From Verrucomicrobiota bacterium (lineage in GTDB: Bacteria; Verrucomicrobiota; Verrucomicrobiia; Opitutales; UBA953), in assembly GCA_015061905.1 (NCBI GenBank), contig SUVQ01000013.1:1-41763 (forward strand): a DNA stretch of 41,763 nt, in the 5' to 3' direction. The notes beneath the pieces are model-generated. The model had not been told where the DNA came from. It made no database searches and saw nothing but the letters and a program-made list of their open reading frames with translations. Below, piece after piece: positions 1 to 41,763 of this stretch. Both the position numbers and the translations under genes were made by a program. The number at the start of each line of letters is the position of its first letter. Positions within the stretch are counted from its first letter, which is position 1.

Positions 1-21
1 GCTTAGAGGTGATACTTTTTT

Positions 22-150
22 AATGAATAACGAATAATGAATAGTGAATAGTTCAGTGCTAAGGTTTGTTCCTTGTCGCTTCGCTCGGTATTGCCGAAGG
101 CAAAAACTTTGAACACTGCGTTATTCACTATTCACTGTTCACTGTTCATT
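22..150. repeat. Palindromic dispersed repeat, copy A
   Basis: AT-rich outer arms made of short GAATAATGAATAGTG-type units face their complements (CACTATTCATTATTC type) around a core that includes GCCGAAGGCAAAAAC. The same element recurs in inverted orientation at 5135-5248. The two copies share an identical stretch of about 36 bp ending in TTCAGTGCTAAGG, and copy A carries an extra insert of about 25 bp in the core. No protein is encoded. It looks like a non-autonomous MITE- or REP-type element. Confidence 0.75.
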
Positions 151-160
151 ACCTAAAGAA

Positions 161-220
161 TCCTTGTCATAACTGATAGGTATTTCCTTATCCGTTATCA
201 GTTATCCGTTATTACCTATC
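161..220. repeat. Small inverted repeat with an 18-bp direct repeat
   Basis: TCCTTGTCATAACTGATA at 161-178 recurs exactly at 1147-1164, where it overlaps the stop codon of the small secreted repeat protein. At the first copy, GATAGGTA (175-182) faces TACCTATC (213-220), with further ATCCGTTAT repeats between. It may be a fragment of a mobile or recombination-associated sequence. The rest of positions 1-225 holds only the palindromic repeat and no gene. Confidence 0.5.
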
Positions 221-225
221 CGTGA

Positions 226-762
226 TTACTTAGTAAAAAAGACATCGCTACGGAGGTATTGCCGAACGGCGAGGGAGCCGTTCCCGTCCTTGACTATTTC
301 TGCAATGATAACGACGTGGGGTTTTTCGCGAACGCTTTCCGTCATAAAAACACCGCGTCCGGTCGGGTAAAAATCCTCGATACAAACGCACGCTCCCTCG
401 AAAGCTTTCCCGAGCGGGAACGCGTTTTCGTAAAACATCGGCTCCACGCAGGGACTTGCGGCGGTTTCCCTGTCGATGCTTGTCGAATACGTCATGCCCG
501 GCGCGACGCGAACGCACCCCTCTTCGTCGATGGAAACCGCGAACGGCGGAATATAAGGAGCGGGCGCGGAAGTGGCGCGTTTTTTCTGCGGCGACGGGAA
601 CGCAAGCGTCGTTCCCGCAGAGCTTCGTTCAAACGTGCCGTTTGCAACGTCCGTGATGCGGTTCGCGCGACATTCCTCGGCGAGCTCGCGAAGCGCGTCC
701 GCAAGCCGGTTCAGTTTTTCGGAGCTTAAAGTTTCTCCGGGATAAAATGTAGGAATATCCAT
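226..762 (-). CDS. Hypothetical phage protein, possibly virion-associated
   Basis: A 178-residue protein starting MDIPTFYPGETLSSEKLN. The ATG at 760-762 is chosen because the open frame upstream of it has no sensible leader. The opening pattern of a short beta segment followed by 'G-x-x-L-x-x-x-x-L-N-x-L' and a helix resembles the start of several phage tail or fibre-associated proteins, but I do not recognise a family. Residues about 70-178 are glycine- and aromatic-rich and look beta-stranded, ending LRSDVFFTK. No signal peptide or membrane segment is visible. It points away from the secreted repeat gene at 809, so the 46-bp gap probably carries divergent promoters. The function is unknown. 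Confidence 0.6.
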   Translation of the reverse strand: MDIPTFYPGETLSSEKLNRLADALRELAEECRANRITDVANGTFERSSAGTTLAFPSPQKKRATSAPAPYIPPFAVSIDEEGCVRVAPGMTYSTSIDRETAASPCVEPMFYENAFPLGKAFEGACVCIEDFYPTGRGVFMTESVREKPHVVIIAEIVKDGNGSLAVRQYLRSDVFFTK

Positions 763-808
763 TTTTTTAGGTTGAAAGTGTGGTTGTTTAAATTTAAGCG
801 TTTGTTTT

Positions 809-1162
809 ATGAAAAGAGTTCTTCTCGTTGTATTTTCCGTGTTTCTTCCGGTCGTGTTCGCCTTCGGTGCGCCGAGCGACAAACAGCGCAACGCTATCGC
901 AGAAAAGCTCTACGGGAGTATTTACATTACGGAATTTTCGGGTTTGGCGGATTTTAGTGTTTATATCACGGAGTTTTCCGGTTTGGCGGATTTGAGCGTT
1001 TCCATTCAGGAATTTTCGGGGCTCGCAAACAGCCCCGGAAAATGGCATATCGAAGAAAATAGCGGATTGGCGGATTTTAGTATTTATATCACGGAATTTT
1101 CCGGTTTGGCGGATTTGATTGTTTACATTGAAAATCCGGAAGCGTTTCCTTGTCATAACTGA
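809..1162 (+). CDS. Small secreted protein built of 13-residue repeats
   Basis: A 117-residue protein. Residues 1-20 form a clear signal peptide (MKRVLLVVFSVFLPVVFAFG) with likely cleavage near AFG-AP. From about residue 37 the chain is five tandem 13-residue units with consensus YITEFSGLADFSV; the third and fourth are diverged (SIQEFSGLANSPG, HIEENSGLADFSI). The regular I-x-x-F-S-G-L-A-D spacing suggests a short beta-solenoid or beta-helix stack. The repeats are also visible in the DNA as a 39-bp period, so the gene probably grew by slippage or unequal recombination. It lies in a prophage between leftward genes and converges on the next with a 2-bp gap, as a cargo ('moron') gene would. I know no matching family. 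Confidence 0.6.
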   Translation: MKRVLLVVFSVFLPVVFAFGAPSDKQRNAIAEKLYGSIYITEFSGLADFSVYITEFSGLADLSVSIQEFSGLANSPGKWHIEENSGLADFSIYITEFSGLADLIVYIENPEAFPCHN

Positions 1163-1164
1163 TA

Positions 1165-1953
1165 TCACTTGCCTTTCTCTTCCGGATACTCGTCTGCGAC
1201 CCACATCGTTACAACGTTGTAGCGTTTGTTGCCCCATTCGTCCGGAGCTATCGAGGTTGCCTCAATTGATTTGAGTGTCCACTTGTGTCCGCCGGGATAA
1301 TCCCCGCGCGGGGAATCCTCTTCACCAATGCCTGACGTAGAGGGGAGTGTTCCCGTGATTTTCGTTTCCTCCCATTCGATTTTTTCTCCGGGCAGGGTCT
1401 TTATTCCCTTTCGTGCGAAACGCACTGCGGTGGAGTTCGGCGTGTATTTTTCGACGAGTTTTCGTAGGGTTGTTTCCTCCCAAATATCCGGGGAGTCCTT
1501 CGGTTCGGAGTCCGCGAACTCGAGCTTTTCGGCATCCGTGTTGTGATACACGACCGTCGCGTCCGTTCCTCCGCTAAGATATTCCTGCGCAAGCATGCGT
1601 TCTTCGTCCGAAATGTTTTTGAAGCGACGATGCGCCAGCAGCGAAACGCTTTTCGGCATAACTTTCATTTTATACGTTGCCGTATCGTCTTTGAATGCGC
1701 AGTAGCCAAGCGTAACCGTTACCGTTTGTCCGTTTCGGGTAAAAGTGCGCTTGTTGCAACGCATATCATCCGGCAACAGCTCGGAATACGAGCCGAGAGC
1801 CGGAGCGGTTGCAACGGCTTTCTGCATCGTTCCCGTGTAAGACGCGATTATTGTTGCCGAGCGGATTTTGTCGATTGTTATCGCGTCCAAAGCGTCGCTG
1901 TAAACCATGCTTTCTGCGCTCCATGTGCCGGGAGTTGTCGTTTCTTCTGCCAT
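1165..1953 (-). CDS. Hypothetical phage structural protein
   Basis: A 262-residue acidic protein starting MAEETTTPGTWSAESMVYSD. The ATG at 1951-1953 is preceded by a good Shine-Dalgarno sequence (CGGAG about 9 nt upstream on the minus strand). There is no signal peptide, membrane helix or known catalytic motif. It holds several aromatic-rich beta-like stretches and ends KRYNVVTMWVADEYPEEKGK, which would suit a virion or tail component. The next leftward gene upstream (1997-2275) resembles a gpW-type connector, which supports a structural role. I do not recognise the family. Confidence 0.65.
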   Translation of the reverse strand: MAEETTTPGTWSAESMVYSDALDAITIDKIRSATIIASYTGTMQKAVATAPALGSYSELLPDDMRCNKRTFTRNGQTVTVTLGYCAFKDDTATYKMKVMPKSVSLLAHRRFKNISDEERMLAQEYLSGGTDATVVYHNTDAEKLEFADSEPKDSPDIWEETTLRKLVEKYTPNSTAVRFARKGIKTLPGEKIEWEETKITGTLPSTSGIGEEDSPRGDYPGGHKWTLKSIEATSIAPDEWGNKRYNVVTMWVADEYPEEKGK

Positions 1954-1996
1954 AATAAAAATCTCCGTTTTTCACCTAATACTTAAAAATTAAGAG

Positions 1997-2275
1997 TTAG
2001 AAAAAGCTCCCAAGGCGTTCGGGGCGGCGGCGTGTCCACCCGTCAAGGCGCGGGAACGCGGTTTTAACGGCTTCGTTTCCTTCACCTATGCGGTAACGTG
2101 CTTCGCGGGCGAGAGCTGCCTGCATGCGTTCCAGTTCCGCGCGGCTAAGCAGGTTTTTGGTCACGCTTGAGCCGTTGCTTGTCCAGCTCACTACGCGTCC
2201 GTCTTTGAACATGGCTGCGTTTGCCGACTTTAATGCGGCAATCAATTCGTCGTCGTTTAAAAATTTTGCGTCCAT
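1997..2275 (-). CDS. gpW-like head-tail connector (putative)
   Basis: A 92-residue protein. The pattern of an N-terminal helix, then a short beta hairpin 'GRVVSWTSNGSSVTKNLLS', then a second helix 'RAELERMQAALARE' matches the small alpha-beta-beta-alpha gpW family of lambda, which joins the filled head to the tail. The usual gpW length is about 65-70 residues, so about 20 residues at the C-terminus (GWTRRRPERLGSFF) are extra; lambda gpW also ends in a basic tail. It is read in the same direction as the gene that follows at 1953. The assignment rests on pattern and size only; another small phage protein is possible. Confidence 0.45.
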   Translation of the reverse strand: MDAKFLNDDELIAALKSANAAMFKDGRVVSWTSNGSSVTKNLLSRAELERMQAALAREARYRIGEGNEAVKTAFPRLDGWTRRRPERLGSFF

Positions 2276-2396
2276 CTACTATACGTAAAATTTGAACCTC
2301 TCTTTCACTTACTTTTTGAGCCGGTTTTTGCCCTGCCCTTTCTTGAAGCCGAAAGCGCGGTGTTCAAAAAAAAATGAAGGTTTAAATTTTTCGTTA

Positions 2397-2470
2397 GGGT
2401 GAGAGAGGATTCCTGATTCACATAGCCGCGGCGGAACTCTCTCGCTACCGTATGAATTGCCGCCGCGGCT
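2397..2470 (+). promoter_or_regulatory. Structured leader RNA with potential H-type pseudoknot
   Basis: Just upstream of the small membrane gene, AGCCGCGGCGG (2424-2434) pairs perfectly with CCGCCGCGGCT (2460-2470), giving an 11-bp stem followed by TTCTTATTTTT. The 25-nt loop contains CTCTCTC (2437-2443), which is complementary to GAGAGAG (2401-2407) upstream of the stem, and the pairing extends by G-C and wobble pairs. The two helices interleave as an H-type pseudoknot. This could act as an attenuator, a cis-regulatory element or the end of a small RNA. Confidence 0.5.
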
Positions 2471-2484
2471 TCTTATTTTTCACC

Positions 2485-2721
2485 ATGAAACTCAAAGCAC
2501 TCATTATCGGAATCACAGCCGGGCTCTTGTCTGCCGGCATTCTCGCGGCGGGAACCGAAGCCGCACAAACCGCCATCGAAGGCGGCGAAACCGCGTTCAC
2601 GGACACGCTCCGTGCTATCGTGAACTTTTTGCCGTTCCCGTGGAACGTCGTCGGCAGTGCCGCCGTTACCGTCGGGGTTGCGCTCTTTGCGTGGCGCAGA
2701 AGCCGAAAAAACAACGGCTAA
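2485..2721 (+). CDS. Small two-helix membrane protein (holin-like or coat-like)
   Basis: A 78-residue protein starting MKLKALIIGITAGLLSAG, with the ATG at 2485 directly after the hairpin leader. Residues about 4-25 form a signal-like hydrophobic helix, residues about 26-45 are acidic and amphipathic (TEAAQTAIEGGETAF), residues about 50-70 form a second hydrophobic helix (FPWNVVGSAAVTVGVALFAW), and the end is basic (RRSRKNNG). Two membrane helices with a charged tail fit a phage holin. The order signal peptide, acidic helix, membrane helix, basic tail also mimics filamentous-phage major coat proteins, though nothing else here is filamentous. It opens the rightward structural cluster, 43 bp before the next gene. 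Confidence 0.6.
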   Translation: MKLKALIIGITAGLLSAGILAAGTEAAQTAIEGGETAFTDTLRAIVNFLPFPWNVVGSAAVTVGVALFAWRRSRKNNG

Positions 2722-2764
2722 AAAACTTTCACCCTATCCCGATTAATCACTAAGCAAAATCATC

Positions 2765-3103
2765 ATGGCAGCAACCTGCTACGGAATTATTAAATCTTTC
2801 GGAACGAAGGAAATCGGCGATGACACGCTCGTTCTTTCCGGAGAAATGAAAGAAGCCTGGGACATTAAAACATGGTCCAACGGCGGCGAAATTAAAGCCG
2901 CGGCAAAGACGAACCACCGTTTTGAGTGTTCTCTTACCCTCATCGGCGAAAAGCCGAGCGAAAACACCATTAAGACATACTTCGGCGCGGACGGGACCGT
3001 CATCATCACGGACATCGCCGAATCTCATAACAACGAAGACGCCGTTCAGTATTCGGTTTCGGCAACCATCTATCCGGATATTTCCGAAGGAGCCGGCGCG
3101 TAA
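2765..3103 (+). CDS. Hypothetical phage structural protein upstream of the capsid gene
   Basis: A 112-residue protein starting MAATCYGIIKSFGTKEIGDD. It is rich in beta-type segments (TLVLSGEMKEAWDI, FECSLTLIGEK, GTVIITDIAES, VQYSVSATIYPDI) with no signal peptide or membrane helix. It lies 36 bp upstream of the major capsid gene, a place often held by head-decoration or small tail-tube proteins. I do not recognise a specific family, so the structural role is inferred from position and the all-beta appearance. Confidence 0.6.
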   Translation: MAATCYGIIKSFGTKEIGDDTLVLSGEMKEAWDIKTWSNGGEIKAAAKTNHRFECSLTLIGEKPSENTIKTYFGADGTVIITDIAESHNNEDAVQYSVSATIYPDISEGAGA

Positions 3104-3139
3104 TTCTTCTTTTTCACAATCCAAACCACAAATCACAAT

Positions 3140-4030
3140 ATGGCTAACGATATCACAGCAGCAACACTCCTTGCCCAAAAAAGCATTGAGAGCCTTCGTC
3201 AAAAATACCCGATTTTTTCCCTCTTCTCGGTGGATTTCGGGGACGCAACCGGTGCAATCGGGCAAACGGTAAACGTTCCCGTTTTCGGGAACGCCGCCGC
3301 AGTAAAAAAACCCGTCAAAGGTTCCTCAATCGACTACTCCGGCGAAGCCGGCGGAAGTATCAGCACGATTCCCGTCGTGATGGATTCCCTCATTTTCTCG
3401 GCGCATCCGCTCTCACCTTATGACGTGGAAAACTTGTCCGATACCACTAAGGCGCAAATCATCACGGAAAACGCTCACGCCGTGCACGCAAAAGCCGATG
3501 CCGTCATTGCCGAGCTCGCGCTTAAAACGGAAAATCACACCGTCTACACCTGCGCCGGCAAGGATGCGTTCACGCTTGGGGATCTCATCGCCGCGCGCGG
3601 TGTTGCCGCCGCCAGCAAAATGGATACCGATAATCTCGTCGTTGTCCTCTCCCCCAAGGCATACAACGACCTTATCGCGGACGACAAGGTCGCAAAATCC
3701 CTCACCACGGCTGCGCAGGATGCCATCGTCGGCGGTCGCATTTCAGAAATTGTCGGGATTAAGGTAACGACTTCCGCCGCGATTAAGTCCGGATATTTCG
3801 GCTATCTCGCGCAAAAATCATCCGTGGCGGTTGCCGCCCGTCCTACCGTGGCGATTGGTGCGGCATGGTCTCAGGTGCTTTCCGTTGAAGGCGGGTTCTC
3901 CTTCACGGCAAAAGGCATTAATGATGCCGTTCACGCGCAGGAAATCTACGTTGCCGAAATCGCTTTCGGTGCGGAGGCGGTTAAGCATGCCAACGAAAAA
4001 CGCATCATCGCCCTTGCCGCAGCGGCGTAG
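3140..4030 (+). CDS. Major capsid protein (HK97-fold, P22 coat-like)
   Basis: A 296-residue protein forming the phage head shell. It has an N-terminal helix (ATLLAQKSIESLRQKYPIFS), a beta-rich segment with 'GQTVNVPVFGNAAA', a long helix 'ENAHAVHAKADAVIAELALK' typical of the spine helix of coat proteins, a segment 'LVVVLSPKAYNDLIADD' as in P-domains, and a C-terminal beta region. Size, composition and position (just before small head genes, scaffold-like coiled coil and portal) agree. There is no obvious N-terminal protease-cleaved delta domain. It is followed by a strong hairpin at 4054-4091, so the message probably ends there and the capsid gene may be expressed at a higher level than the genes that follow. 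Confidence 0.75.
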   Translation: MANDITAATLLAQKSIESLRQKYPIFSLFSVDFGDATGAIGQTVNVPVFGNAAAVKKPVKGSSIDYSGEAGGSISTIPVVMDSLIFSAHPLSPYDVENLSDTTKAQIITENAHAVHAKADAVIAELALKTENHTVYTCAGKDAFTLGDLIAARGVAAASKMDTDNLVVVLSPKAYNDLIADDKVAKSLTTAAQDAIVGGRISEIVGIKVTTSAAIKSGYFGYLAQKSSVAVAARPTVAIGAAWSQVLSVEGGFSFTAKGINDAVHAQEIYVAEIAFGAEAVKHANEKRIIALAAAA

Positions 4031-4053
4031 AAACCAACACCGTCGTTAATCGA

Positions 4054-4093
4054 AAATTAGGGAGGGGGATTTTCGTTCTCCTCCCTAATTTTT
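4054..4093 (+). terminator. Rho-independent terminator after the capsid gene
   Basis: AAATTAGGGAGG (4054-4065) pairs with CCTCCCTAATTT (4080-4091), a 12-bp stem with a 14-nt loop, running into a short T tract. It lies 24 bp after the capsid stop codon. Confidence 0.8.
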
Positions 4094-4106
4094 CCCCTTG
4101 CTCAAA

Positions 4107-4538
4107 ATGACACCTATTCCGCTACAGAAAGTTTTTCTCTCGATTCTCGGACGCACGCCGCTTGCCGCGTTCCCGCGGGTTCGCTTTTCGCTTTCTTTTG
4201 AGACAACGCCGCTCGAAGCATCCGGGCTCGTTTGCTCCGTAACCCTCAATGCCGCGCCGCCGAAGCCGGCAAGCGGTGCAGCCGAAGTTGTCGCTACGTT
4301 CTCGCTTTCTCTTGACGCGGACGAATACGACTCCGAAGCGATCGAAGCGGCGGCAAGCGCGACCGCGCGCGAGCTCGCCGAAAAACTCACCCCCGCACAA
4401 ATCAACACTCACGCGGAAGAAATCGGAGCTCCGATTCATTGCTACTTCTTCCGCTGGAACTCAACCGACGAAACCCGCAACGCCGAAGATACGGCACGCG
4501 TGTTTGAATTTCAATACACCGGACAAATTCAATTTTAA
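4107..4538 (+). CDS. Hypothetical phage protein, possible head-tail or tail-terminator component
   Basis: A 143-residue protein starting MTPIPLQKVFLSILGRTPLA; the ATG at 4107 is preferred to an upstream TTG. It has an N-terminal helix followed by alternating beta segments (VRFSLSFETT, VVATFSLSLDADEYD), a helix (AIEAAASATARELAEKL), and a final strand region 'ARVFEFQYTGQIQF'. Small mixed alpha/beta proteins between capsid and portal or tail genes are often tail-terminator or completion proteins, but I see no decisive motif. The stop codon is 2 bp from the next start, indicating translational coupling. Confidence 0.6.
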   Translation: MTPIPLQKVFLSILGRTPLAAFPRVRFSLSFETTPLEASGLVCSVTLNAAPPKPASGAAEVVATFSLSLDADEYDSEAIEAAASATARELAEKLTPAQINTHAEEIGAPIHCYFFRWNSTDETRNAEDTARVFEFQYTGQIQF

Positions 4539-4540
4539 TC

Positions 4541-5116
4541 ATGGAAAAACAAATCGAACAACTTAAGGCGGAAATCGCCGCCAAAGACGCGACAATCGCC
4601 GAAATGAAAGCCGCCGCAGACGCTCAGCACGCCGAAGCGGAAAAGCTCGGCAAACTCGCGGAAGAAGCCGCCGTCGCCGGCAAAGCCGCAACGGAAGCCC
4701 TCGAAGCGAAAAACGCCGAAATCGAGCAACTAAAAACGGACTTCGCCGCGCAACTTGCCGGCAAAGACGCTGACATCGCCGAGCGGGAACGCCAATACGC
4801 CGCAATGCGCGCGGAGTTTGACACATGGCGCGCCGAGCAGGAAGCGCGCAACGCCAACCTGCGCGCGGAACTCGAAGCGGCAAACGCGGAAGAAACGGCG
4901 AGGTTCAAAGCCCGCATCGCCGAGCTCGAAGCCGCCGCCAAAACCGCCGAGCAGATCGCTGCCGAAAAATACGCCGCCGGCTCGCCGCCGATTCCGGCAA
5001 GCCCCGCAGGCGATCCCGGCAATCTGCAGGAGCGGCTCGCGCAGGCACGAAAAAATCCGGCTGCGTTTGCCGCGCTCGCGAAAGAGCTTACGCCCGATCA
5101 AATCAAGGCTCTCTGA
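4541..5116 (+). CDS. Coiled-coil phage protein, scaffold-like
   Basis: A 191-residue protein that is almost wholly helical. Residues 1-145 form a long coiled coil very rich in Ala, Glu and Lys (KQIEQLKAEIAAKD, KNAEIEQLKTDFAAQLAGKD, RNANLRAELEAANAEE). A proline-rich hinge at about 148-160 (GSPPIPASPAGDPG) separates it from a C-terminal helical piece (RLAQARKNPAAFAALAKEL, then TPDQIKAL). Long coiled coil, hinge and compact helical tail are typical of phage scaffolding proteins, whose tail binds the coat protein. The position after the capsid gene is unusual, since scaffolds normally precede it, so another structural role is possible. Confidence 0.65.
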   Translation: MEKQIEQLKAEIAAKDATIAEMKAAADAQHAEAEKLGKLAEEAAVAGKAATEALEAKNAEIEQLKTDFAAQLAGKDADIAERERQYAAMRAEFDTWRAEQEARNANLRAELEAANAEETARFKARIAELEAAAKTAEQIAAEKYAAGSPPIPASPAGDPGNLQERLAQARKNPAAFAALAKELTPDQIKAL

Positions 5117-5134
5117 ACCCCTTCGGGCTTTGTT

Positions 5135-5248
5135 GATGAATAATGAATAATGAATAGTGAATAATGAATAACGCATACTTCAAAGTTTTTGCCTTCGGCA
5201 AAAACCTTAGCACTGAACTATTCACTATTCATTATTCCCTATTCACTA
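5135..5248. repeat. Palindromic dispersed repeat, copy B (inverted relative to copy A)
   Basis: The reverse complement of this stretch matches 22-150 closely, including the block ending TTCAGTGCTAAGG. The centre is a perfect hairpin: GTTTTTGCC (5185-5193) pairs with GGCAAAAAC (5197-5205) around a 3-nt loop. It fills the gap between the coiled-coil gene and the portal gene and could act as a terminator or RNA-stability element. Confidence 0.75.
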
Positions 5249-5272
5249 AAAAATCCACTTTTCCACTAAAAA

Positions 5273-6655
5273 ATGAACCTCTTTTCCAAGATTGCCGGAT
5301 GGTGCGGGATCGGAAACGCCTACGAAAGCGCGCTTGATTCAGACCAGCGCAAAAGCCCCCGGCTTATCGTTGCCGATTCCCGCCTCGAACTTTCGCAAGT
5401 TACGCGTCTGCAAATGCTTTCGCGCGCCCGTGCCCTTGTGCGCAATTTCGGATTCGCGCGGGAACAGGTCGCAAGCATGGAAACCTACGCCGTCGGCGAC
5501 GGCATTTTCCCGCAGCCGTCCACGGAATCTCCGGAATGGAACTCAAAAGCCGAAAAACTCTTCCTGCGCGGATTTGCCGCCGTACCCGAAATCAGCGGGC
5601 GGTTCTCTCTCGGCAAACTCACCCGCCTCGTGTGCCGCGCTCTCGATACCGACGGCGAAATCTTTTTCGTAAAAATCGCGGGAACGCCCGCCGCTCCGCC
5701 GCGCCTACAGGTTTTCGAAGCTCACCGCCTTGCCGGAAAATTCGATGCCCGGGAACGCATTTTCGACGGGATTCGCTTCGATGCCTACGGGCGTCCGACC
5801 GGTTACCTCTTCGTTGACGATGAGGGCAAAATTTCCGAGCAAGCCGCGCAAAACGTCATTCACGTCTTTATTGCAGAGCGCACCAGCGACGCGCACGGTG
5901 TGCCGCAAATCCAGCATGCCGTCAACTCCCTCATCGATACTAAGGAGCTTCTCGCCATCGAGAAAAAAGGCGTCAAAACCATCAACGAAATGACGTTCGC
6001 CATCACCAGCGAGCGCAACGCCGATCCGGAAACCTCTTCCGGAGATTTCGCTTTCGGAGCTGCAAACACATCCGGAGAAACAGACCCGGATGCATTAAAG
6101 CGCAACATCGGCGGCGGAAAGTTCGGTCGCCTCCTTCCGGGCGAAAAAATCGAATCCCTGCGCACGGATCGCCCCTCGCCGACATTTACCGGATTCCTCG
6201 ATTACATCCTGCGCGACGCCTCGCTCGGAAACGTGCCGTATGAGTTCGTGGCGGATTCAAGCAAGGTCGGCGGCGCAGGCGTGCGCCTTGTCGTAGGGCG
6301 CGCCGCGCGTGTGTTCGCTCGACGCCAGCAGGAACTCATAGAGCAATTTTTAACGCCGGTTTACAAGTTCTTCATCGGCTGGGCAATCACCACGGGAAAA
6401 CTCGAACCCGTCGAAGACTGGGATGCCGTCGAATGGGCATGCCCCAAAAGCGTAACCGTCGACGCCGGACGCGAAGCCGCACAGGACCGCGCAGACGTGC
6501 TCGGCGGCTTCCTCTCCCTCGAAGATTACTACGCCGCGCGCGGCATGAAGTATAAGGATGAAGTGCGCCGCATCGCCGCCAACATCAAACTCGCCCTGGA
6601 AACCGCAAAAGAGTTCGGCGTTCCCGCAGAAGCCGTTTTTCAAAATCTGAAATAA
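5273..6655 (+). CDS. Phage portal protein, lambda gpB type
   Basis: A 460-residue protein forming the dodecameric ring at the head vertex through which DNA is packed and ejected. Typical lambda-family features are visible: 'SRARALVRNFGFAREQ' then 'YAVGDGI' near residues 50-77, 'DTDGEIFFVK' near 127, 'DAYGRPTGYLFVDDE' near 170, the conserved 'GVPQIQHAVNSLIDTKEL' helix near 210, and the C-terminal 'EAAQDRADVLGGFLSLEDYY' and 'EVRRIAANIKLALE' helices. Length fits the family (about 450-550). The lambda-type portal normally works with a GpA-type large terminase, and one is present on the opposite strand at 11787-12959. The gene lies directly after palindromic repeat copy B. Confidence 0.9.
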   Translation: MNLFSKIAGWCGIGNAYESALDSDQRKSPRLIVADSRLELSQVTRLQMLSRARALVRNFGFAREQVASMETYAVGDGIFPQPSTESPEWNSKAEKLFLRGFAAVPEISGRFSLGKLTRLVCRALDTDGEIFFVKIAGTPAAPPRLQVFEAHRLAGKFDARERIFDGIRFDAYGRPTGYLFVDDEGKISEQAAQNVIHVFIAERTSDAHGVPQIQHAVNSLIDTKELLAIEKKGVKTINEMTFAITSERNADPETSSGDFAFGAANTSGETDPDALKRNIGGGKFGRLLPGEKIESLRTDRPSPTFTGFLDYILRDASLGNVPYEFVADSSKVGGAGVRLVVGRAARVFARRQQELIEQFLTPVYKFFIGWAITTGKLEPVEDWDAVEWACPKSVTVDAGREAAQDRADVLGGFLSLEDYYAARGMKYKDEVRRIAANIKLALETAKEFGVPAEAVFQNLK

Positions 6656-6705
6656 GATGAACACCAAGGAACAGCCCCCGCTTTCCCGGCGAGACAAAAA
6701 AAAAA

Positions 6706-6732
6706 TCCCGCGAAGTGATTCGCGGGAACGGG
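6706..6732 (-). terminator. Terminator for the leftward small membrane gene
   Basis: TCCCGCGAA (6706-6714) pairs with TTCGCGGGA (6719-6727) around GTGA. Read leftward it is followed by a run of ten T residues, ending the 6734-7069 transcript. One CGGGAACG word (6723-6730) is built into the stem edge. Confidence 0.8.
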
Positions 6733-6733
6733 A

Positions 6734-7069
6734 TTAACGCTTAGAGCACGCCTCGCGCGCCCGAATATGAGATTCACGCTCAAACTCACGAAGTTCGTGC
6801 TCTTTTCGATATTGTTCTATTTCAATTTTTTTAAGATACGTGTCCGTATCCTCTTTCTCTTCCTTTTGTTTTTTACGCACCATATCAAAACAAAATGCAA
6901 GGGCTAAACAGGCGGAAATAATCAAAATTCCTATTTTCGACTCTTGCGGAAGCCCAATGAACACGACTAAGAGGCAAATAACAACCGGACTCCACAGCAA
7001 AGTTTTTAATACCGCCTTGCCTCCTCCGAATATGGCTACGGCAACGAGAATTAAGATAAAAAACAACAT
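6734..7069 (-). CDS. Membrane protein with charged C-terminal helix (phage cargo gene?)
   Basis: A 111-residue protein. The ATG at 7067-7069 is chosen over an upstream GTG because GAAAGGA lies at good Shine-Dalgarno distance. Three hydrophobic helices are visible (about 2-17, 22-40, 47-63: LFFILILVAVAIF, LLWSPVVICLLVVFIGL, IGILIISACLALAFCF), followed by a highly charged helix of about 45 residues (KKQKEEKEDTDTYLKKIEIE). It is transcribed against the portal and tape-measure genes and has its own terminator. Base usage is richer in A/T than its neighbours, which fits an acquired cargo gene. No family is recognised; superinfection immunity or lysis functions are possible but unproven. Confidence 0.65.
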   Translation of the reverse strand: MLFFILILVAVAIFGGGKAVLKTLLWSPVVICLLVVFIGLPQESKIGILIISACLALAFCFDMVRKKQKEEKEDTDTYLKKIEIEQYRKEHELREFERESHIRAREACSKR

Positions 7070-7125
7070 CGGCTTATCCTTTCTTTCGTAAATAAACACT
7101 TGTTTTAAATCACCGTCAAGACGCT

Positions 7126-9150
7126 ATGGCAGACATATCACTTACATTCGATGCAAACACGGCACCATTCTTAAACGGCGTCAAAGAAATCCGCGCGAGC
7201 GTCAATACGTTGTCGCAAACGATTAAAGAGAAACGCGAGGAACTTATTCAATTTTCTGCCAACCTTTCGATGATTTTTCATGGGGTGAAAAGTGCCGCCG
7301 CCCTTGCCGGGCGGATGCTTTCCGCGCCTCTCCAAGAATTTTCCCGCTGGGAAGATGCGGCGACACGGCTTGCGCCGCTCGTCGGCGGGCTCGAAGCGGC
7401 AAAAGAAGTTGCCTCGCATTTGCGCGATGAAGCCGCCAACGGCACAATGAGCCTCGAACAACTTGCAAGCGTTGCCGGGCGGCTCTCCACCGTATTCAAA
7501 AATTCCGCCGATGTCAAAAAATGGACAACCGCATTCCACGACCTAAGCGCGGGAACGGGTTTGGACATCAACGAGCTTATCGGCAACTTCGTCAAATCCA
7601 AGGCGCGCGGGCGTTTCGAATCGGAACTCATGGACATGCTGGCGCAAAAGGGCGTAAACATTTTTCCGTATTTGGAGGAACAAACCGGGCTTGCCGGCAA
7701 GGCACTCCAAAAAGCAGCCGTCGAAGGGAAGCTCGCTTGGTCCGAAGTCGAAAAGGCGATTTTGCGCGTTTCTACGGGAACGGGGCGGTTTGCCGGGCAA
7801 GCGTCGGCGATGAGCAACACTTTCGGCGGCTCCGTCGGAACAATGGTCGCGAACTGGAAGATTCTCCTTGCCGAATTTGCCAAGCCGATTGCGGAAAATC
7901 TTACGCCGAAAATTCAAAGCCTCGGGAAGTTTCTTTCGGAAAGCCGCGACAGTGCCGAGCGGTTCGGGAACGCGCTCACAACTCTCGGACCGATAGCCTT
8001 AGCCCTCGCCGGGTCGTTCAAAGTTTTTAAGGGGACAATTCTGTCCGTTCTCGCCGCGATGAATCCGGTCGTTGCCGCAGTAGCGGCTTTTGCCGGCATC
8101 GCCGGAATGATCGGTTTTGAAGCGTGGATACACTCGATGAAAGAAGAAACACGCGAGGCGGAAAAACTCATCGACGCTAACAAACGCCTGCAAGCGTCTT
8201 TTGATTCCGTCAGCGGCGCGAAAAATGCGGCGCAACTCAAAGATGCAGCGCAACAGGCACGACGCCTTGTCGACGTGCTTGAAGAGGCGGGAACGTCTTT
8301 GAACACGGATTTAATCCGCGAAAACATCAAAGCTCTCGAAGCCAAGACTCGCGCCGAAATCGCCCTTGCCGCAGCCACGGAAAAACGTGCCGCCGCCGAA
8401 GCCAAATCCGCCGAAAACAACCGCAAGGCACAGGAACTTTGGACAAAAATTTCCACGGAGCGGCAACAGGCGCAAGACAAGCGGGCGTTGGAAACTGCGC
8501 CGCTACAAGCACGCCCGGATCTGCTTTTGAAGCAAAACGGGTTCGCTTCCTACGATGCGTTTGCCGAATGGCTGAACAATCACCGCGCCCGGATGGACGA
8601 AGGGCTGAAAAGTAATCAGGGCTCGGAATGGCTTGTCGGAGAAGTAAACCGGCTGGAGCAGTTAAATGAACAGTATTTCACTCTTGTCGAAGCCGCCAAT
8701 GCCGCCGCCGAAGCACAAGCCGCCGCGCAAAACGAAGCCTATGCAAAGGCGGAAGCCGCCAAGCGCGCGGCGCAAACGCGCGTAGACTTGCTCCGCGCCG
8801 AAATCAGCGGAAACGCCAAGCTCGCTGCCGAAATCAAAACGCGGGAACGCTACGAGACACTTCTCAATCAGCACCTCGCTGCCGGAATCGATTACGGCAA
8901 GGCGCGCGAACTCGCTGCGCAGGAAGCCGCCGCAGAATACACGCAAACACGGAGTAGCGGCGGGAACGCCGTAGGAACCGGGCTTGTAGGCGACGAGCTG
9001 GCGAGCGTCGGAGGCGGTCGCTCGATGCACGTCGGCGGCGATGTCGCCGCGTCCGTGGCACGCAACCAGCTCTCCGTCATGCGCACCATGGCAAACTACC
9101 TTGCCGGGATTAGAGACAACACTTCCAGAACAACTGCCGTCTTTGCCTGA
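7126..9150 (+). CDS. Phage tail tape measure protein
   Basis: A 674-residue protein that sets tail length and passes down the tail tube. It starts 'ADISLTFDANTAPFLNGVKEIRAS', typical of tape measures, and is mostly helical and alanine-rich. The N-terminal third carries the conserved tape-measure core (AAALAGRMLSAPLQEFSRWE; GTGRFAGQASAMSNTFGG; VGTMVANWKILLAEFAKPI). Hydrophobic stretches occur around residues 290-335 (LALAGSFKVFKGTILSVLAA, VVAAVAAFAGIAGMIGFE), as expected for membrane insertion. Long coiled coils follow to about residue 600, with a glycine-rich end. At this length the predicted tail is about 100 nm (family rule of about 0.15 nm per residue), suggesting a siphovirus-type or short contractile tail. 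Confidence 0.85.
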   Translation: MADISLTFDANTAPFLNGVKEIRASVNTLSQTIKEKREELIQFSANLSMIFHGVKSAAALAGRMLSAPLQEFSRWEDAATRLAPLVGGLEAAKEVASHLRDEAANGTMSLEQLASVAGRLSTVFKNSADVKKWTTAFHDLSAGTGLDINELIGNFVKSKARGRFESELMDMLAQKGVNIFPYLEEQTGLAGKALQKAAVEGKLAWSEVEKAILRVSTGTGRFAGQASAMSNTFGGSVGTMVANWKILLAEFAKPIAENLTPKIQSLGKFLSESRDSAERFGNALTTLGPIALALAGSFKVFKGTILSVLAAMNPVVAAVAAFAGIAGMIGFEAWIHSMKEETREAEKLIDANKRLQASFDSVSGAKNAAQLKDAAQQARRLVDVLEEAGTSLNTDLIRENIKALEAKTRAEIALAAATEKRAAAEAKSAENNRKAQELWTKISTERQQAQDKRALETAPLQARPDLLLKQNGFASYDAFAEWLNNHRARMDEGLKSNQGSEWLVGEVNRLEQLNEQYFTLVEAANAAAEAQAAAQNEAYAKAEAAKRAAQTRVDLLRAEISGNAKLAAEIKTRERYETLLNQHLAAGIDYGKARELAAQEAAAEYTQTRSSGGNAVGTGLVGDELASVGGGRSMHVGGDVAASVARNQLSVMRTMANYLAGIRDNTSRTTAVFA

Positions 9151-9151
9151 T

Positions 9152-9544
9152 ATGAAAAACATCATTGAATCCGATTTTCGCGAAATCCTTGAAAGCGGGC
9201 TTGCGGGAACGCTGGAGTTCGAGATAAAGCAGCGCGCAAACGAAAACTCCGAATTTTACCTTCTTTATTATGCGTCCGTTCCCGCGACCGTGGAGGAAAC
9301 GACGCAGACGGTAGATGTGCTTCCCGGCGGCACGCGCCTTCGACGCTCTTTTTCTGCCACGCTGTTGCGCAACGATTTGAAATTTAAGTATCCGAGCGGC
9401 TCCGCCGGCTTTATTCAGCCGATGGGCAGGTTTACGCCGAAAGTCGGCGATGCCGTTACTTACAACGGGGAAAAATACCGCATTCGCCTCGTTGCCTGTG
9501 ATGAGAGCTCCCCTCTTGTTCGCCTTGATTTTTCCGAAAAATAA
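9152..9544 (+). CDS. Hypothetical phage tail protein
   Basis: A 130-residue protein starting MKNIIESDFREILESGLAGT. The ATG at 9152 lies one base after the tape-measure stop codon, so the two are translationally coupled. It is mainly beta-stranded (LEFEIKQRANENSEFYLLYY, YNGEKYRIRLVACDESSPL), with no signal peptide or membrane helix. Small beta proteins next to the tape measure are often minor tail or distal-tail components. I do not recognise the family. Confidence 0.65.
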   Translation: MKNIIESDFREILESGLAGTLEFEIKQRANENSEFYLLYYASVPATVEETTQTVDVLPGGTRLRRSFSATLLRNDLKFKYPSGSAGFIQPMGRFTPKVGDAVTYNGEKYRIRLVACDESSPLVRLDFSEK

Positions 9545-9547
9545 ACC

Positions 9548-9817
9548 ATGGAACACTTAATCGAAGAAAAACTCAAAGGGCTCGGGCGAAGCCTCGACCT
9601 GTTACGCGATGAAGGTAAGCAGCGCGCCGTTAAAATCGATCATCTCGCAAAAGATTTTTCAGATCTGAAAGCGACTTTTGCACAAACGAGTGCCGAGCTC
9701 TCCCATACCAAGCAAGACGTTCGCGACCTGCGCGCGCTCGTATGGAAGATCGTCGCATTTCTCACTTCCGGATGCGCCGCCGCGCAATACTTTTTCAACA
9801 ACAATCCCTCCCTATAA
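9548..9817 (+). CDS. XhlA-like small membrane protein (holin accessory, putative)
   Basis: An 89-residue protein. Residues 1-60 form a charged coiled-coil helix (LGRSLDLLRDEGKQRAVKID, then TFAQTSAELSHTKQDVRDLR). Residues about 65-83 form one hydrophobic helix (LVWKIVAFLTSGCAAAQYFF), and the tail is short. This order, coiled coil then a C-terminal membrane anchor, is that of the XhlA/haemolysin family of phage proteins that help holins, and of several small phage membrane proteins of unknown role. It begins 3 bp after the previous gene and ends 4 bp before the next. Lysis function is inferred from architecture only. Confidence 0.55.
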   Translation: MEHLIEEKLKGLGRSLDLLRDEGKQRAVKIDHLAKDFSDLKATFAQTSAELSHTKQDVRDLRALVWKIVAFLTSGCAAAQYFFNNNPSL

Positions 9818-9821
9818 CACC

Positions 9822-10250
9822 ATGGCACTACGACAAACAATTCTCGACCGCGCAATGACCGAGCCGGCAAGCACCGAAGTCTTACCCGGCGTAAAGGTTC
9901 GCAAAATCTCCCTGCAAACGCTTTCGATGCTTGCACGCATCGGCTCTCCGCTTGCGCAAATCGACCGGCTCTCCTCCGATGATATCGGGAATCTTTCCGT
10001 TCCCGACATTGCCGAGTTCGTATTTATTCACGCGGCACCGCCGCAAGACGTGCGATACTGCGTTTATCAGGACAGGTCGGAGCTCGCCGAGCGCGCGGAC
10101 GAATTTTGCGCAAAATTCGCGCTTTCGGATTTTTCGAAAATTCTCACGGCAATCACCGCAGACGCGGCGGCAATCCAAGCAGCGCAAGTTTCCGTCGTGC
10201 CGGATTCCGCACTTGCGCAACCAAAAAACGGGCAGAGCCCGGCGGCATAG
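9822..10250 (+). CDS. Tail assembly chaperone, short form (gpG-like)
   Basis: A 142-residue protein starting MALRQTILDRAMTEPASTEV. In the final codons the message contains the slippery heptamer A AAA AAC in the correct frame (10223-10229), followed 6 nt later by a perfect 8-bp hairpin. A -1 shift there adds a 70-residue tail. This is the gpG/gpGT arrangement of lambda-like phages, in which the two products hold the tape measure during tail assembly. The helical content and length (about 140) fit gpG. Here the pair lies downstream of the tape-measure gene instead of upstream, which is unusual. Confidence 0.7.
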   Translation: MALRQTILDRAMTEPASTEVLPGVKVRKISLQTLSMLARIGSPLAQIDRLSSDDIGNLSVPDIAEFVFIHAAPPQDVRYCVYQDRSELAERADEFCAKFALSDFSKILTAITADAAAIQAAQVSVVPDSALAQPKNGQSPAA

Positions 10251-10257
10251 CCGGGCT
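10223..10257 (+). promoter_or_regulatory. Programmed -1 frameshift signal
   Basis: In the zero frame the codons read CCA AAA AAC GGG, so A AAA AAC is a canonical X XXY YYZ slippery heptamer (10223-10229). A 6-nt spacer (GGGCAG) leads to AGCCCGGC (10236-10243) pairing with GCCGGGCT (10250-10257), a perfect 8-bp stem with a 6-nt loop that contains most of the zero-frame stop codon. Spacer length and stem strength are in the range of proven signals. Confidence 0.85.
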
Positions 10258-10441
10258 GATTTTTACCGTCGCTCGCGAGCTTCATATTTCCCCGCAGGAA
10301 TGCCTCGAAATGCCCCTTGCTCAACTCTACCAGTTTTCACATTGTGCGCTTCTTTATGCCGGATGCGCAACGGACTGGAAAAACCGCACCGAGCAGGAAC
10401 AGGCAACCGTTCGCGCATGGCTGAGTAAGAGGAAAAATTAA
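10229..10441 (+). CDS. Frameshift extension of the tail assembly chaperone (gpT-like part)
   Basis: After a -1 slip on the AAC codon the ribosome reads RAEPGGIAGLIFTVARELHI and continues for 70 residues to a stop at 10439-10441 (ending AWLSKRKN), 3 bp before the small-terminase start. The complete fusion would be about 206 residues: 136 from the zero frame plus 70. The extension has no good start of its own with a ribosome site, and its helical segment (SPQECLEMPLAQLYQFSHCA) resembles the T part that binds the tape measure or tail tube. Position and frame fit exactly with the slippery site. The product has not been demonstrated. Confidence 0.7.
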   Translation, partial: RAEPGGIAGLIFTVARELHISPQECLEMPLAQLYQFSHCALLYAGCATDWKNRTEQEQATVRAWLSKRKN

Positions 10442-10444
10442 AAC

Positions 10445-10984: not shown

Positions 10985-11054
10985 ACGGCTTTTTTCACAA
11001 ATCGGCGCAACGGCGGCTTTGCCGAGGCGGACGCCGTTTGCGCACGCAATCGTT

Positions 11055-11750: not shown

Positions 11751-11786
11751 AAATCCCCCCCTCTAAGTCAATCTCCTTTTCGTTTT

Positions 11787-30339: not shown

Positions 30340-30375
30340 AACCGCACGGGAACGTTCCCGTCTCGAAAAAGAGGA

Positions 30376-30531: not shown

Positions 30532-30559
30532 CGTTCCCGCGACCTAAGCTACGGGAACG
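30532..30559 (-). terminator. Terminator of the PEP-CTERM gene from an inverted pair of the 8-mer
   Basis: CGTTCCCG (30532-30539) pairs with CGGGAACG (30552-30559); leftward it runs into ten or more T residues. It lies 39 bp after the stop of the secreted protein gene. Confidence 0.8.
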
Positions 30560-33800: not shown

Positions 33801-33840
33801 AAGCGTTCCCGCGATTTGATTTCACGGGAACGCTTTTTTT
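33801..33840. terminator. Terminator built from an inverted pair of the 8-mer
   Basis: AAGCGTTCCCG (33801-33811) pairs with CGGGAACGCTT (33825-33835), then T7. It ends the polyamine gene and can also serve the leftward membrane gene that stops at 33851. Confidence 0.85.
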
Positions 33841-39852: not shown

Positions 39853-39860
39853 TGGGGAAA

Positions 39861-39943
39861 TGTGAACAACCTGTGGATTTTGTAATTAATTTTTAATTAC
39901 ATTTGTGAATAACCTGTGGATTTCGTAAATAAGTTGTGGATAC
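39861..39943. promoter_or_regulatory. Cluster of DnaA-box-like sites around an AT-rich palindrome
   Basis: Two near-identical 25-bp blocks, TGTGAAYAACCTGTGGATTT plus YGTAA, begin at 39861 and 39904. They contain TGTGAATAA (39904-39912, a perfect complement of DnaA box TTATTCACA), TGTGAACAA (39861), TGTGGATTT (39872, 39915) and TGTGGATAC (39935). Between them is the perfect palindrome GTAATTAA-TTT-TTAATTAC (39882-39900). A further TTATTCACA lies at 40524-40532. Binding by DnaA is inferred. Confidence 0.5.
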
Positions 39944-39956
39944 AGTTTATAAATTG

Positions 39957-40418
39957 TTAAAGTCCGAGCTCAGCCAACGTCGCAAACATTTCTTCCGCAG
40001 AAACATTTTTCGCATCTTCTTCCGCAAGCTTTTCCGGATTCCAAATGTGAAATTTTTTAAATTCGCCTACCAAAACCGCATCGGCGGAAATTCCGGCATG
40101 CGCCAACAAACGACTGTCGAGACTGATGCGCCCCGCCTTATCGCAGGTAACCTTGCTCGCACTGCGGGCAAGCATCATCAGCGCGCGCTGCTTCGCCGGA
40201 GCACTCAAATTCGATTGCGACGCCGCTTCTATCAGCTTTTGAACCACCGACGGAGGACAAACGGTAATGCATCCGTTCGGATTCGGAATCGCCAAATACA
40301 CGGAACGCACGTCTTCACTCGCGACAAAGCGCCAGTCAGACGGGATCGTCAGACGGTTCTTCGCGTCGAGCTTGTGTCGGAATTCTCCGACAAATAACTG
40401 TGCATTTTCCGTGAACAT
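39957..40418 (-). CDS. mraZ: Transcriptional regulator MraZ
   Basis: A 153-residue protein from the ATG at 40416-40418 (MFTENAQLFVGEFRHKLDAK). It contains two AbrB/MraZ-type DNA-binding halves: 'GEFRHKLDAKNRLTIPSDWR' and 'ARSASKVTCDKAGRISLDSR'. MraZ forms rings that bind TGGG repeats in front of its own operon and repress the division and cell-wall cluster. The repeats are present upstream here at 40442-40476. It heads the leftward rsmH-ftsL-ftsI group. Length (about 150) is standard. Confidence 0.93.
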   Translation of the reverse strand: MFTENAQLFVGEFRHKLDAKNRLTIPSDWRFVASEDVRSVYLAIPNPNGCITVCPPSVVQKLIEAASQSNLSAPAKQRALMMLARSASKVTCDKAGRISLDSRLLAHAGISADAVLVGEFKKFHIWNPEKLAEEDAKNVSAEEMFATLAELGL

Positions 40419-40441
40419 CGATGAACTTTTTAGGGAGTGCG

Positions 40442-40476
40442 CCCCAATGAGAAACACTTTCTCCCATTTCGCCCCA
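40442..40476 (-). promoter_or_regulatory. MraZ operator repeats
   Basis: Read leftward, TGGGG (40472-40476), TGGGA (40462-40466), a degenerate TGTTT (40452-40456) and TGGGG (40442-40446) stand at exact 10-bp steps, 24 bp before the mraZ ATG. TGGG repeats with 5-bp spacers are the known MraZ binding site. A TTGACA at 40479-40484 just upstream could be a -35 element. Confidence 0.75.
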
Positions 40477-40630
40477 CTTGTCAATAAATCAAGACCACTT
40501 CACGCCAAAAATTTGTTGACAAATTATTCACAAACCCAAAATTCGCCGCCGCTTCGGCGTTCCCGCCCATAAAATTTCAATAAAAAATATACTCGCAATC
40601 GAAATTAATTACGGGAACGATAAACCTCCT

Positions 40631-41416
40631 ATGAAAAACACCGTTCTTGCCTTTTTTTTCAGCGTTGCCCTGCTCTTGGCAACTCCCGCAATTTTCGCCC
40701 AAAATACCACACTTTCTACCGGACAAAAGCCGCAACAAAGCATACTCCGCACACATTACAACACGACACAACGACTCGTTAGCGGACTGTCTTTAAACTT
40801 CGATTTCGATATCGATACACTCCAAAACGAACCCGAATTTAATCAACTTCTTTTAAACACAGCACTACGCTTTAACGCGGGAACGCACGTTCCCGACAAC
40901 GCCATCCGGAAATTTGTGGAGACCACCCGACAAAAACACCCGTCTCCGAACGGAATTATCAACGAATTCTTCTTTCGGGCATCCGCAAAAATTGAGTCGC
41001 CCGCTCGCCCGAATATTGCGTCCGCGTTAATTTCTCGCTACGAATACACCGCCGGCGCGCACGGTGAGAACACCTTTTCCTGCATAAATTTCGACCTTTC
41101 CGAAAAAAAACAGCTTTTCTTTAAAGATATTTTTAAAGCAAACTGTGAAAAAAAACTAACGGAGCTTTTGAAAAAGCACGATCCCCGCAAAAAAGCCGAC
41201 AACTTCGAATACGCAAAAGAAGAAAACGAAATTCCGGCTCAGCCTCATCCGACAGAAAATTTTCTTCTCCGCGCCGACGGAGTTCTGTTCGTTTACGGAC
41301 CCTACGAAATCGATTGCCATGCCACCGGAGCCATCTTTATCCGCGTTCCCGCCGACGAAATTGCACCGCTCCTAAATTTCCGACGTTCCCGTGCGCAAAG
41401 AATAGACCACGAATAA
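40631..41416 (+). CDS. Secreted DUF3298 (RsiV-like) protein
   Basis: A 261-residue exported protein. Residues 1-23 form a signal peptide (MKNTVLAFFFSVALLLATPA, ending IFAQ). The C-terminal half is a DUF3298 domain: 'SRYEYTAGAHGENTFSCINF' then 'DLSEKKQLFFKDIFKANCE', and 'FLLRADGVLFVYGPYEIDCH' with 'ATGAIFIRVPADEIAPLL'. This fold is known from the anti-sigma factor RsiV, where it binds lysozyme, and from many periplasmic lipoproteins; no membrane helix or sigma-binding part is present here, so it is more likely an envelope or lysozyme-interacting protein. It is divergent from mraZ. Confidence 0.8.
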   Translation: MKNTVLAFFFSVALLLATPAIFAQNTTLSTGQKPQQSILRTHYNTTQRLVSGLSLNFDFDIDTLQNEPEFNQLLLNTALRFNAGTHVPDNAIRKFVETTRQKHPSPNGIINEFFFRASAKIESPARPNIASALISRYEYTAGAHGENTFSCINFDLSEKKQLFFKDIFKANCEKKLTELLKKHDPRKKADNFEYAKEENEIPAQPHPTENFLLRADGVLFVYGPYEIDCHATGAIFIRVPADEIAPLLNFRRSRAQRIDHE

Positions 41417-41620
41417 ACACGAATGTTTTAACGCAAAGAAATTTGCGTCGCAGGGCGTTCCCGTGCGAAGCAAAATTTTCTTTCGCGGGTAGAGTAAAGA
41501 TTCTCGCGCAAAAACGCGAAGACACGAAAAAATACTTTACCGTAAAAAAAATCCGTGTGATTCCTTGTTCATCCGCGGTTCCAAAAAACTTTGCGGCTTG
41601 GCAACTTCGCGCGAGCTTTT
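41406..41620. repeat. Dispersed intergenic repeat, copy 2
   Basis: Matches the repeat at 30376-30487: it opens ACCACGAATAAACACGAAT, contains AAACGCGAAGACACG and ATCCGTGTGATTCC, and closes TTCATCCGCGGTT followed by an AAACTTTGCGGCTTGG tail like that at about 30495. It carries an extra middle part with one 8-mer (41456). It starts inside the last codons of the DUF3298 gene. The remaining bases to 41763 show no gene. Confidence 0.75.
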
Positions 41621-41763
41621 GGCGTGCGAGGAAATCCGCGTTGCCTCATGAAAAAGTGCACCGAATAAGTCATGCGACAAAGAGGTCCCACGATGAGCAA
41701 ATCTGCAAAAAAGCGTTTTTAAGAAAGAAGCGTTGGGAGTATCGGCTGTGCGTAAACAGGCGG

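Follow-up and report, generated by a model that had tools for sequence, protein, structure and literature searches.

An eight-base word dispersed through one genus of Opitutales is a candidate uptake word for self-specific natural transformation

The DNA analyzed here (the window) is a 41,763-bp contig, SUVQ01000013.1, of a Verrucomicrobiota bacterium of the order Opitutales, whose genome (assembly GCA_015061905.1; here G000) comprises 17 contigs and 2,081,963 bp and is 98% complete. The window contains 137 exact copies of the 8-nt word CGGGAACG, 69 forward and 68 reverse, or one per 305 bp. The first-pass annotation, made from the letters alone, had counted 136 (69/67) and suggested either a DNA uptake word or an element resembling HIP1 (highly iterated palindrome 1) of cyanobacteria. 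We found the word to be dense throughout G000 and in most sampled members of its genus, and we favor a role in DNA uptake. The copies and their paired arrangements in the window are as follows.

1..41763, both strands (69/68): copies of CGGGAACG by word count, with the extended consensus R-CGGGAACG-Y
21716..21743: inverted word pair, a terminator-like stem-loop between an A-run and a T-run
24226..24253: inverted word pair with 20-nt start spacing, intergenic according to a homemade gene caller
26613..26645: inverted word pair with A/T runs at its flanks, intergenic (same caller)
30347..30360: head-to-head overlap of two words, CGGGAACGTTCCCG
30532..30559: inverted word pair with 20-nt start spacing, intergenic (same caller)
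33804..33832: inverted word pair with A/T runs at its flanks, intergenic (same caller)

After CGGGAACG, the most frequent 8-mers of the window are overlaps of the word itself, followed by poly-A as the leading unrelated 8-mer (60 copies versus 38 expected). The iteration extends to the whole genome, which holds 6,550 copies (3,233 forward and 3,317 reverse; one per 318 bp) versus 85 (46 + 39) of the control word, CGGGAACG read backwards. The size of the enrichment depends on the background model: 21-fold in the window under an order-2 Markov model that included the word itself, 28-fold (2,559 copies versus 90.8 expected) in an 802,107-bp sample of G000 under an order-3 model trained with the word masked, and 76- to 118-fold relative to base composition alone, by GC bins. 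The initial figure of about 100 times chance thus holds for base composition and fails under both Markov models. The observation itself is confirmed and is larger than had been stated. Of the outcomes that the first-pass annotation had named as contrary evidence, none was seen: the excess is genome-wide, the two orientations are only slightly unequal, and CGGGAACG clearly exceeds its one-base variants.

In a 502,108-bp sample of G000, the base preceding CGGGAACG is G at a frequency of 0.60 and A at 0.23, and the base following it is C at 0.52 and T at 0.22, hence the extended consensus; information beyond these flanks amounts to 0.08 bits at position -2 and at most 0.02 bits elsewhere. GCGGGAACG is the reading of 60% of copies. 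One-base variants had been described as rare, which is true of each singly (at most 16 in the window) but not of the class, since their joint count, summed over the eight positions in the 802,107-bp sample, is 2,450 versus 1,347 expected. Their excess is concentrated at word positions 3, 4, 6, and 8 (1.9- to 3.1-fold), with only 1.04 to 1.28 at positions 1, 2, 5, and 7. In the commonest reading frames of CGGGAACG the codon third positions are word positions 2, 5, and 8. The variant pattern is at odds with these and hints at a position-specific tolerance, mutation bias being an alternative.

The distribution of the word was assessed in an order-level set of 115 genomes including G000 (8 of the genus, 65 of other genera in the same family, and 42 of other families of Opitutales) and in a phylum-wide draw of 387 genomes, 384 of them outside the genus, which overlaps the order-level set and for which densities use rounded genome sizes. 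The genus genomes are 92 to 98% complete. Six of the eight are dense, with 2.7 to 3.9 words per kb: besides G000, these are G002 (6,161 copies), G003 (5,322), G004 (5,274), G005 (5,434), and G007 (5,192). The two weak genomes hold 1,362 (G001) and 546 copies (G006). No dense genome was found among the other genera of the family (0/65; 29 to 375 copies each), the other families of the order (0/42; 4 to 639 copies each), or the phylum draw outside the genus (0/384), where the maximum was 1,037 copies in 6.2 Mb and the highest density was 983 copies in 4.0 Mb; no genome outside the genus in either set reached 0.25 per kb. This comparison of related genomes, one of the proposed checks, confines dense use to one Opitutales genus among the genomes examined. 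A hairpin pattern matched named Opitutales metagenome-assembled genomes (MAGs) from the hindgut of goat, sheep, water deer, and water buffalo, as well as MAG RUI087 and Candidatus Spyradosoma merdigallinarum (from chicken, going by its name); three Spyradosoma loci carry 3.9 to 5.1 words per kb, and matches in scattered unrelated bacteria correspond to background density. The Opitutales MAGs and Candidatus Spyradosoma belong to Verrucomicrobiota, which agrees with the lineage given in the first-pass annotation. A comparable dispersed word was not seen in small samples of four other genera, those of G008 and G011 being weak because they are repeat rich.

Orientation is nearly neutral, as first noted, with only a slight genome-wide bias. 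Successive words in the 502,108-bp sample occur as 430 ++, 423 --, 381 +-, and 379 -+ pairs. On the 358,876-bp contig C10, the strands carry 528 and 596 copies (runs z, -1.43), and orientation did not clearly switch near 260 kb, at the sign change of GC skew. The copies are mildly tilted toward the G-rich strand (1,357 versus 1,180; 53.5%). A Chi-like recombination hotspot, which would stop a RecBCD/AddAB-type nuclease and be selected for chromosome repair, would likewise produce a word that is over-represented, conserved, and genus-wide. Chi, however, acts in one orientation and is replication skewed and far sparser than one per 318 bp. Polarity with replication is common to Chi and the FtsK-orienting polar sequences (KOPS), which are over-represented short oligomers like CGGGAACG, whereas the latter is nearly unpolarised. 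The near-equal strand counts and the behavior of C10 argue against such polar motifs, as the first-pass annotation had reasoned, and we regard a Chi-like role as very unlikely.

Placement relative to genes was examined with the homemade caller, which is based on codon usage and assigns a coding fraction of 0.77 to 0.80, so that its "non-coding" DNA includes missed genes. Called genes carry 3.12 words per kb and the remaining DNA 3.45; 1,939 of the 2,559 sampled copies overlap called genes, and all six frames are occupied, in agreement with the initial observation of copies in every frame and in non-coding DNA. A tilt toward gene orientation (511 versus 346 copies) fits a tolerated peptide, Ala-Gly-Thr, encoded by CGGGAACG. 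Inverted pairs of the order CGTTCCCG...CGGGAACG (-+) show a sharp peak at a start spacing of 20 nt, which accounts for 36 of the 117 pairs within 8 to 40 nt. An A or T run adjoins 69 of the 98 such pairs spaced 12 to 32 nt, and 72 of the 98 are intergenic; for the 30 pairs in the opposite order the corresponding numbers are 3 and 12. Judged by position and flanking runs, the -+ pairs are predicted to form terminator-like stem-loops and may act as terminators. That the word spread solely as an arm of such terminators would suit the runs beside 69 of the 98 pairs. These pairs, however, cover at most 196 of the 2,559 sampled words, and most copies fall within called genes; this explanation, already disfavored by the single intragenic copies, is scarcely credible.

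Selective retention was evaluated in alignments from G000, with 8-mers matched in letter composition and CpG content as controls. The word was kept at 387 of 480 sites in G007 (control, 1,023/1,827), 117 of 170 in G004 (260/776), 135 of 204 in G005 (306/947), 44 of 74 in G002 (137/400), and 17 of 67 in G003 (37/415). Its survival is thus 1.4 to 2.9 times that of the matched controls in the five comparisons between dense genomes. Flanks are slightly more divergent, with an identity of 0.8995 within 10 nt of words versus 0.917 on average. G000 words missing in G007 differ by one base in 61 of 93 cases (controls, 508/804), and gain and loss between these two species look like point changes. Trees of RpoB, DprA, ComEC, PilB, PilT, PilB2, and PilC placed G002, G004, G005, G000, and G007 together (support, 81/86 to 100/99) and G001, G006, and G003 outside, the dense G003 on a long branch of variable position. 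The tree of Tex disagrees, joining G001 with G000, G004, G005, and G007 and leaving out G002 (96/96). The corresponding locus of G001 (C72; L373) encodes a Tex-like protein with 95% identity to its G000 counterpart; for the seven other proteins compared, identity is 36 to 84%. It shows 86% DNA identity and has 3 words in 2.6 kb; its protein groups with those of dense species, and the gene is possibly an old transfer within the genus. No DNA segment of at least 88% identity over 300 bp, such as would indicate recent import by G001, G006, or G003 from a dense species, was detected in the loci sampled.

The two weak genomes carry remnants of the word. The aligned residual words of G001 coincide with words in G000 in 21 of 24 cases (control, 164/667) and those of G006 in 9 of 14 (73/597). 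In the reverse direction, G000 words were kept at 21 of 153 sites in G001 (control, 164/780) and at 9 of 106 in G006 (73/591); no aligned word is common to G001 and G006 (0/10 and 0/6). The word-encoded tripeptides AGT, TGT, RER, VPA, and RSR are 2.4- to 5.8-fold over-represented in G000, G003, and G004, and are mostly coded by the word itself (1,119 of 1,305 occurrences in G000 and 163 of 185 in G003). In G001 and G006, copies not coded by the word still reach 1.8 and 1.9 times expectation, compared with 0.61 in G000, 0.59 in G003, and 0.99, 1.23, and 0.90 in three other genera sampled on a small scale. Because most aligned residual words sit at G000 words and proteins keep the footprints in other codons, the ancestor of the genus was likely dense, and the word would since have decayed in G001 and G006, mostly through silent changes. 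That amino-acid footprints outlasted the word suggests that the DNA word, and not the peptide, was what was kept. These data also bear on a binding site of an abundant chromosome-organizing protein or global regulator, which the wide spread, near strand neutrality, and conservation of the word would suit. The word nevertheless lies inside genes in all frames and has bent protein make-up (seven tripeptides are 2.1- to 5.2-fold over-represented in G000), and the decay in G001 and G006 would require loss of the binding protein. We know of no chromosome-organizing or regulator family with thousands of strict contiguous 8-bp sites, and such a role seems quite improbable.

Collectively, these features make self-specific natural transformation in this Opitutales genus, with CGGGAACG as the uptake word, the best-supported reading, to which we assign a probability of roughly 0.7. 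Of the two options put forward at first, uptake is favored by non-palindromy, near orientation neutrality, stem-loops, conservation, the presence of core uptake machinery, and loss with protein footprints, although the proposal is only partly supported, as species-specific DNA bears the word too. DNA carrying CGGGAACG would be recognized by a surface receptor on a type IV pilus, the pilus would pull the bound DNA in, and ComEC and DprA would pass a strand to recombination; uptake bias and recombination would have built up the word and would maintain it. The dense ancestor may have lost the word in two sister lineages after loss or change of uptake specificity. On the best reading of the sequences, the word would work like the DNA uptake sequence (DUS) of Neisseriaceae, whose receptor is ComP, and the uptake signal sequence (USS) of Pasteurellaceae, for which ComN/PpdA is the proposed receptor, having evolved independently and without belonging to the DUS dialects. 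USS has flanking T-tracts, whereas T preference at the flanks of CGGGAACG is very weak (0.02 bits); word and phylum also differ, a PpdA-like candidate was not identified, and the letters GCGG that GCGGGAACG has in common with USS are probably there by chance. The conservation of DUS was reportedly studied by Treangen et al. in 2008. Like USS, CGGGAACG is a short non-palindromic genome-wide word with less conserved flanks (PMC2397512, in the portion accessible to us). Like DUS, it is short and non-palindromic, occurs in thousands of copies and in inverted terminator-like pairs (PMC2397512 and PMC3630211, accessible portions), and is conserved above its surroundings with slightly more divergent flanks (PMC2397512). 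Unlike DUS, neither CGGGAACG nor CGTTCCCG contains the CTG core described as common to all DUS dialects (PMC3630211). The phylum is also another one, and copy numbers are about twice those found for DUS, namely, 3,269 in Eikenella corrodens (PMC3630211) and >3,400 quoted for another report.

Several observations weigh against uptake, the mild strand tilt described above among them. The machinery is equally present in relatives without the word: ComEC was found in 20 of 20 genomes searched, and DprA and T2SSE ATPases were each found in 12 of 12. It therefore permits the word but does not explain it. The relevant genes of G000 are the following.

G000:C10:70880-76665: adjacent pilC, pilB, pilT, and second pilB genes (T2SSF, T2SSE, and MshEN domains)
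G000:C10:84677-85825: dprA (DprA domain)

A search for comEC, dprA, comEA, and pilin genes with a DNA-binding minor pilin, as initially proposed, recovered ComEC, DprA, and prepilins, whereas ComEA was not recognized, the HHH_3 matches above the cut-off (weaker ones were left aside) representing one large protein in frames of 773 to 1,198 aa. This protein resembles Tex. Two regular-expression scans of 802 kb of G000 did not find a secretin motif, PilQ not having been searched for genome-wide. All seven prepilins of G000 have acidic globular parts (isoelectric points of 4.3 to 5.5), and a basic ComP-like pilin is not among them; DNA-binding minor pilins are reported to have electropositive residues in common (PMC12616744, accessible portion). 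One small prepilin, P7 (137 aa; G000:C16:65858-66271), is single copy in all eight genus genomes. Among eight genomes searched outside the genus, seven gave no match and one gave a weak match, and 24 relatives were found among 5.8 billion proteins. Its predicted structure, a long helix plus a sheet, is of modest confidence (mean predicted local distance difference test [pLDDT], 76.4) and resembles no PDB entry significantly (best E, 0.68). As P7 is present in the weak G001 and G006 too, it does not track word loss, and this genus-specific small pilin is a lead only as candidate receptor. Both weak genomes carry extra GspG/H/I/J-like pilin sets with an extra GspE (G001:C36 and G006:C62), which resemble a type II secretion system and were not seen among the matches listed for the six dense genomes. 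Also unfavorable to uptake is that words differing between G000 and G007 showed no mark of import by longer tracts, such as is reported for some DUS in the source portions at hand.

A further unfavorable point is the presence of the word in DNA that may be foreign. The first 16 kb of the window resemble a prophage.

1..16000: degraded-looking prophage-like stretch, 2.5 words per kb versus 3.8 in the rest of the window
3140-4030: prophage major head
5273-6655: prophage portal
7126-9150: prophage tape measure
10445-10984: prophage small terminase
11787-12959: prophage large terminase, partial nuclease match

Of 35 related viral loci, the 16 listed carry 0 to 0.15 words per kb, and this remnant carries 2.5. 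Species-specific segments hold 12 words over 3,630 bp and 23 over 9,218 bp, that is, 3.31 and 2.50 per kb versus 3.71 and 3.17 in shared DNA. In low-GC windows the number of copies per kb falls, but the excess does not once composition is allowed for. A simple test of whether foreign DNA lacks the word therefore did not discriminate. This contrasts with DUS, which are described as conserved and associated with inverted-repeat terminators but as absent from recently acquired genes (PMC2397512, accessible portion). If the word serves uptake, its presence in prophage and species-specific DNA would point to long residence or to an accessory pool exchanged within the genus; a HIP1-like process would be blind to origin.

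Such a process, in which a methyltransferase and methyl-dependent mismatch repair would create and keep the word in any resident DNA with no role in uptake, accords with a density that, for its composition, is as elsewhere in low-GC DNA and is nearly as high in prophage and species-specific DNA. HIP1 reaches a density of the same order as that of CGGGAACG. PF01555 (N6/N4) methyltransferases were detected in all 8 genus genomes and in 1 of 4 others, a further point unfavorable to uptake that at first looked like support for HIP1-like maintenance. When 17 of the genus proteins were compared, however, they formed nine groups, and no single group was represented in all six dense genomes. The comparison took in 17 of 18 genus matches (one short G003 piece beside another match was omitted) and 2 of 6 from G010. 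The widest group comprises G000, G002, G003, G005, and the weak G001; the only PF01555 proteins of G004 and G007 are related neither to this group nor to one another. Two of the dense genomes, G002 and G005, lack C5 methyltransferases (PF00145). The search was confined to these two families, to the exclusion of type I (PF02384) and others, and at 92 to 98% completeness a gene may have been missed. HIP1 and its methyltransferases are described by Elhai (2015; PMC4390886), who proposed the methyl-dependent repair model. In the accessible portion of that work, HIP1 (GCGATCGC) has eight bases and a very high density, like CGGGAACG, and is low or replaced in some lineages; the HIP words named there are, however, palindromic (PMC4390886), whereas CGGGAACG is not its own reverse complement. 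A HIP1-like process would not predict stem-loops from inverted pairs or the loss of the word in two lineages, although it is compatible with both. The HIP1-like half of the initial proposal has accordingly lost ground, and we consider it unlikely, though less so than any of the other alternatives to uptake.

With somewhat less assurance than for uptake itself, we favor the broader view that this would be a third, independently evolved word-gated transformation system, in a distant phylum, denser than the published counts that we found, ancestral to the genus and lost in two species that retain protein footprints. Frye et al. (2013; PMC3630211, accessible portion) described the requirement for uptake sequences as unique to Neisseria species and the Pasteurellaceae. 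Searches of the open literature, a scope that excludes most subscription papers and all preprints, gave no account of such a word for Verrucomicrobiota. Evolutionary ideas on uptake words rest, in the source portions at hand, on the two cases of Neisseriaceae and Pasteurellaceae; a third, if true, would help to separate recurring features (terminator pairs, permissive sites, and loss) from accidents. The genus would offer a natural before-and-after comparison between species keeping the word and two with few copies. If true, the reading would also point to gene-exchange barriers within animal-gut communities and offer a possible handle for transforming a lineage known here from metagenome assemblies alone.

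A few other candidates and loci deserve mention. CGGGTACG was considered, from a word count, as a dialect in genus g2 (G008) and rejected because a single strand of one repeat-rich region (L056; G008:C2:1-20000) accounts for 31 of its 32 copies, and the over-represented words of G011 are an artifact of a similar region (L072; G011:C1:1-20000). Both regions are very long, repeat rich, and apparently coding, and mimic over-represented words. Repeats of the CACCACCAACCC type, tried as an alternative word in G006, are clustered and not dispersed. They form clusters at loci such as L021, L023, and L024, the G006 sample holding 131 exact copies of CACCACCAA; CACCACCAA/CACCACCAACCC-like repeats are not among the top words in the other sampled genomes. 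In the viral collection, the hairpin pattern gave at least 120 matches, and among those listed the contigs with the highest counts were mainly short or GC-rich stretches and repeats; two low-GC contigs, L251 and L263, carry an unrelated ACGGGAACGGGAAC repeat. A further viral-collection contig with phage-like genes, L220 (IMGVR_UViG_3300019820_000004), has 20 words in 12.3 kb and is probably a prophage of a word-bearing host; a gene beside its phage-like genes presumably encodes ribosomal protein S1. Finally, the window encodes a protein with a PEP-CTERM end and a PF09028 (Mac 1) match at 21777-22745 and a second PEP-CTERM protein at 30599-31525.

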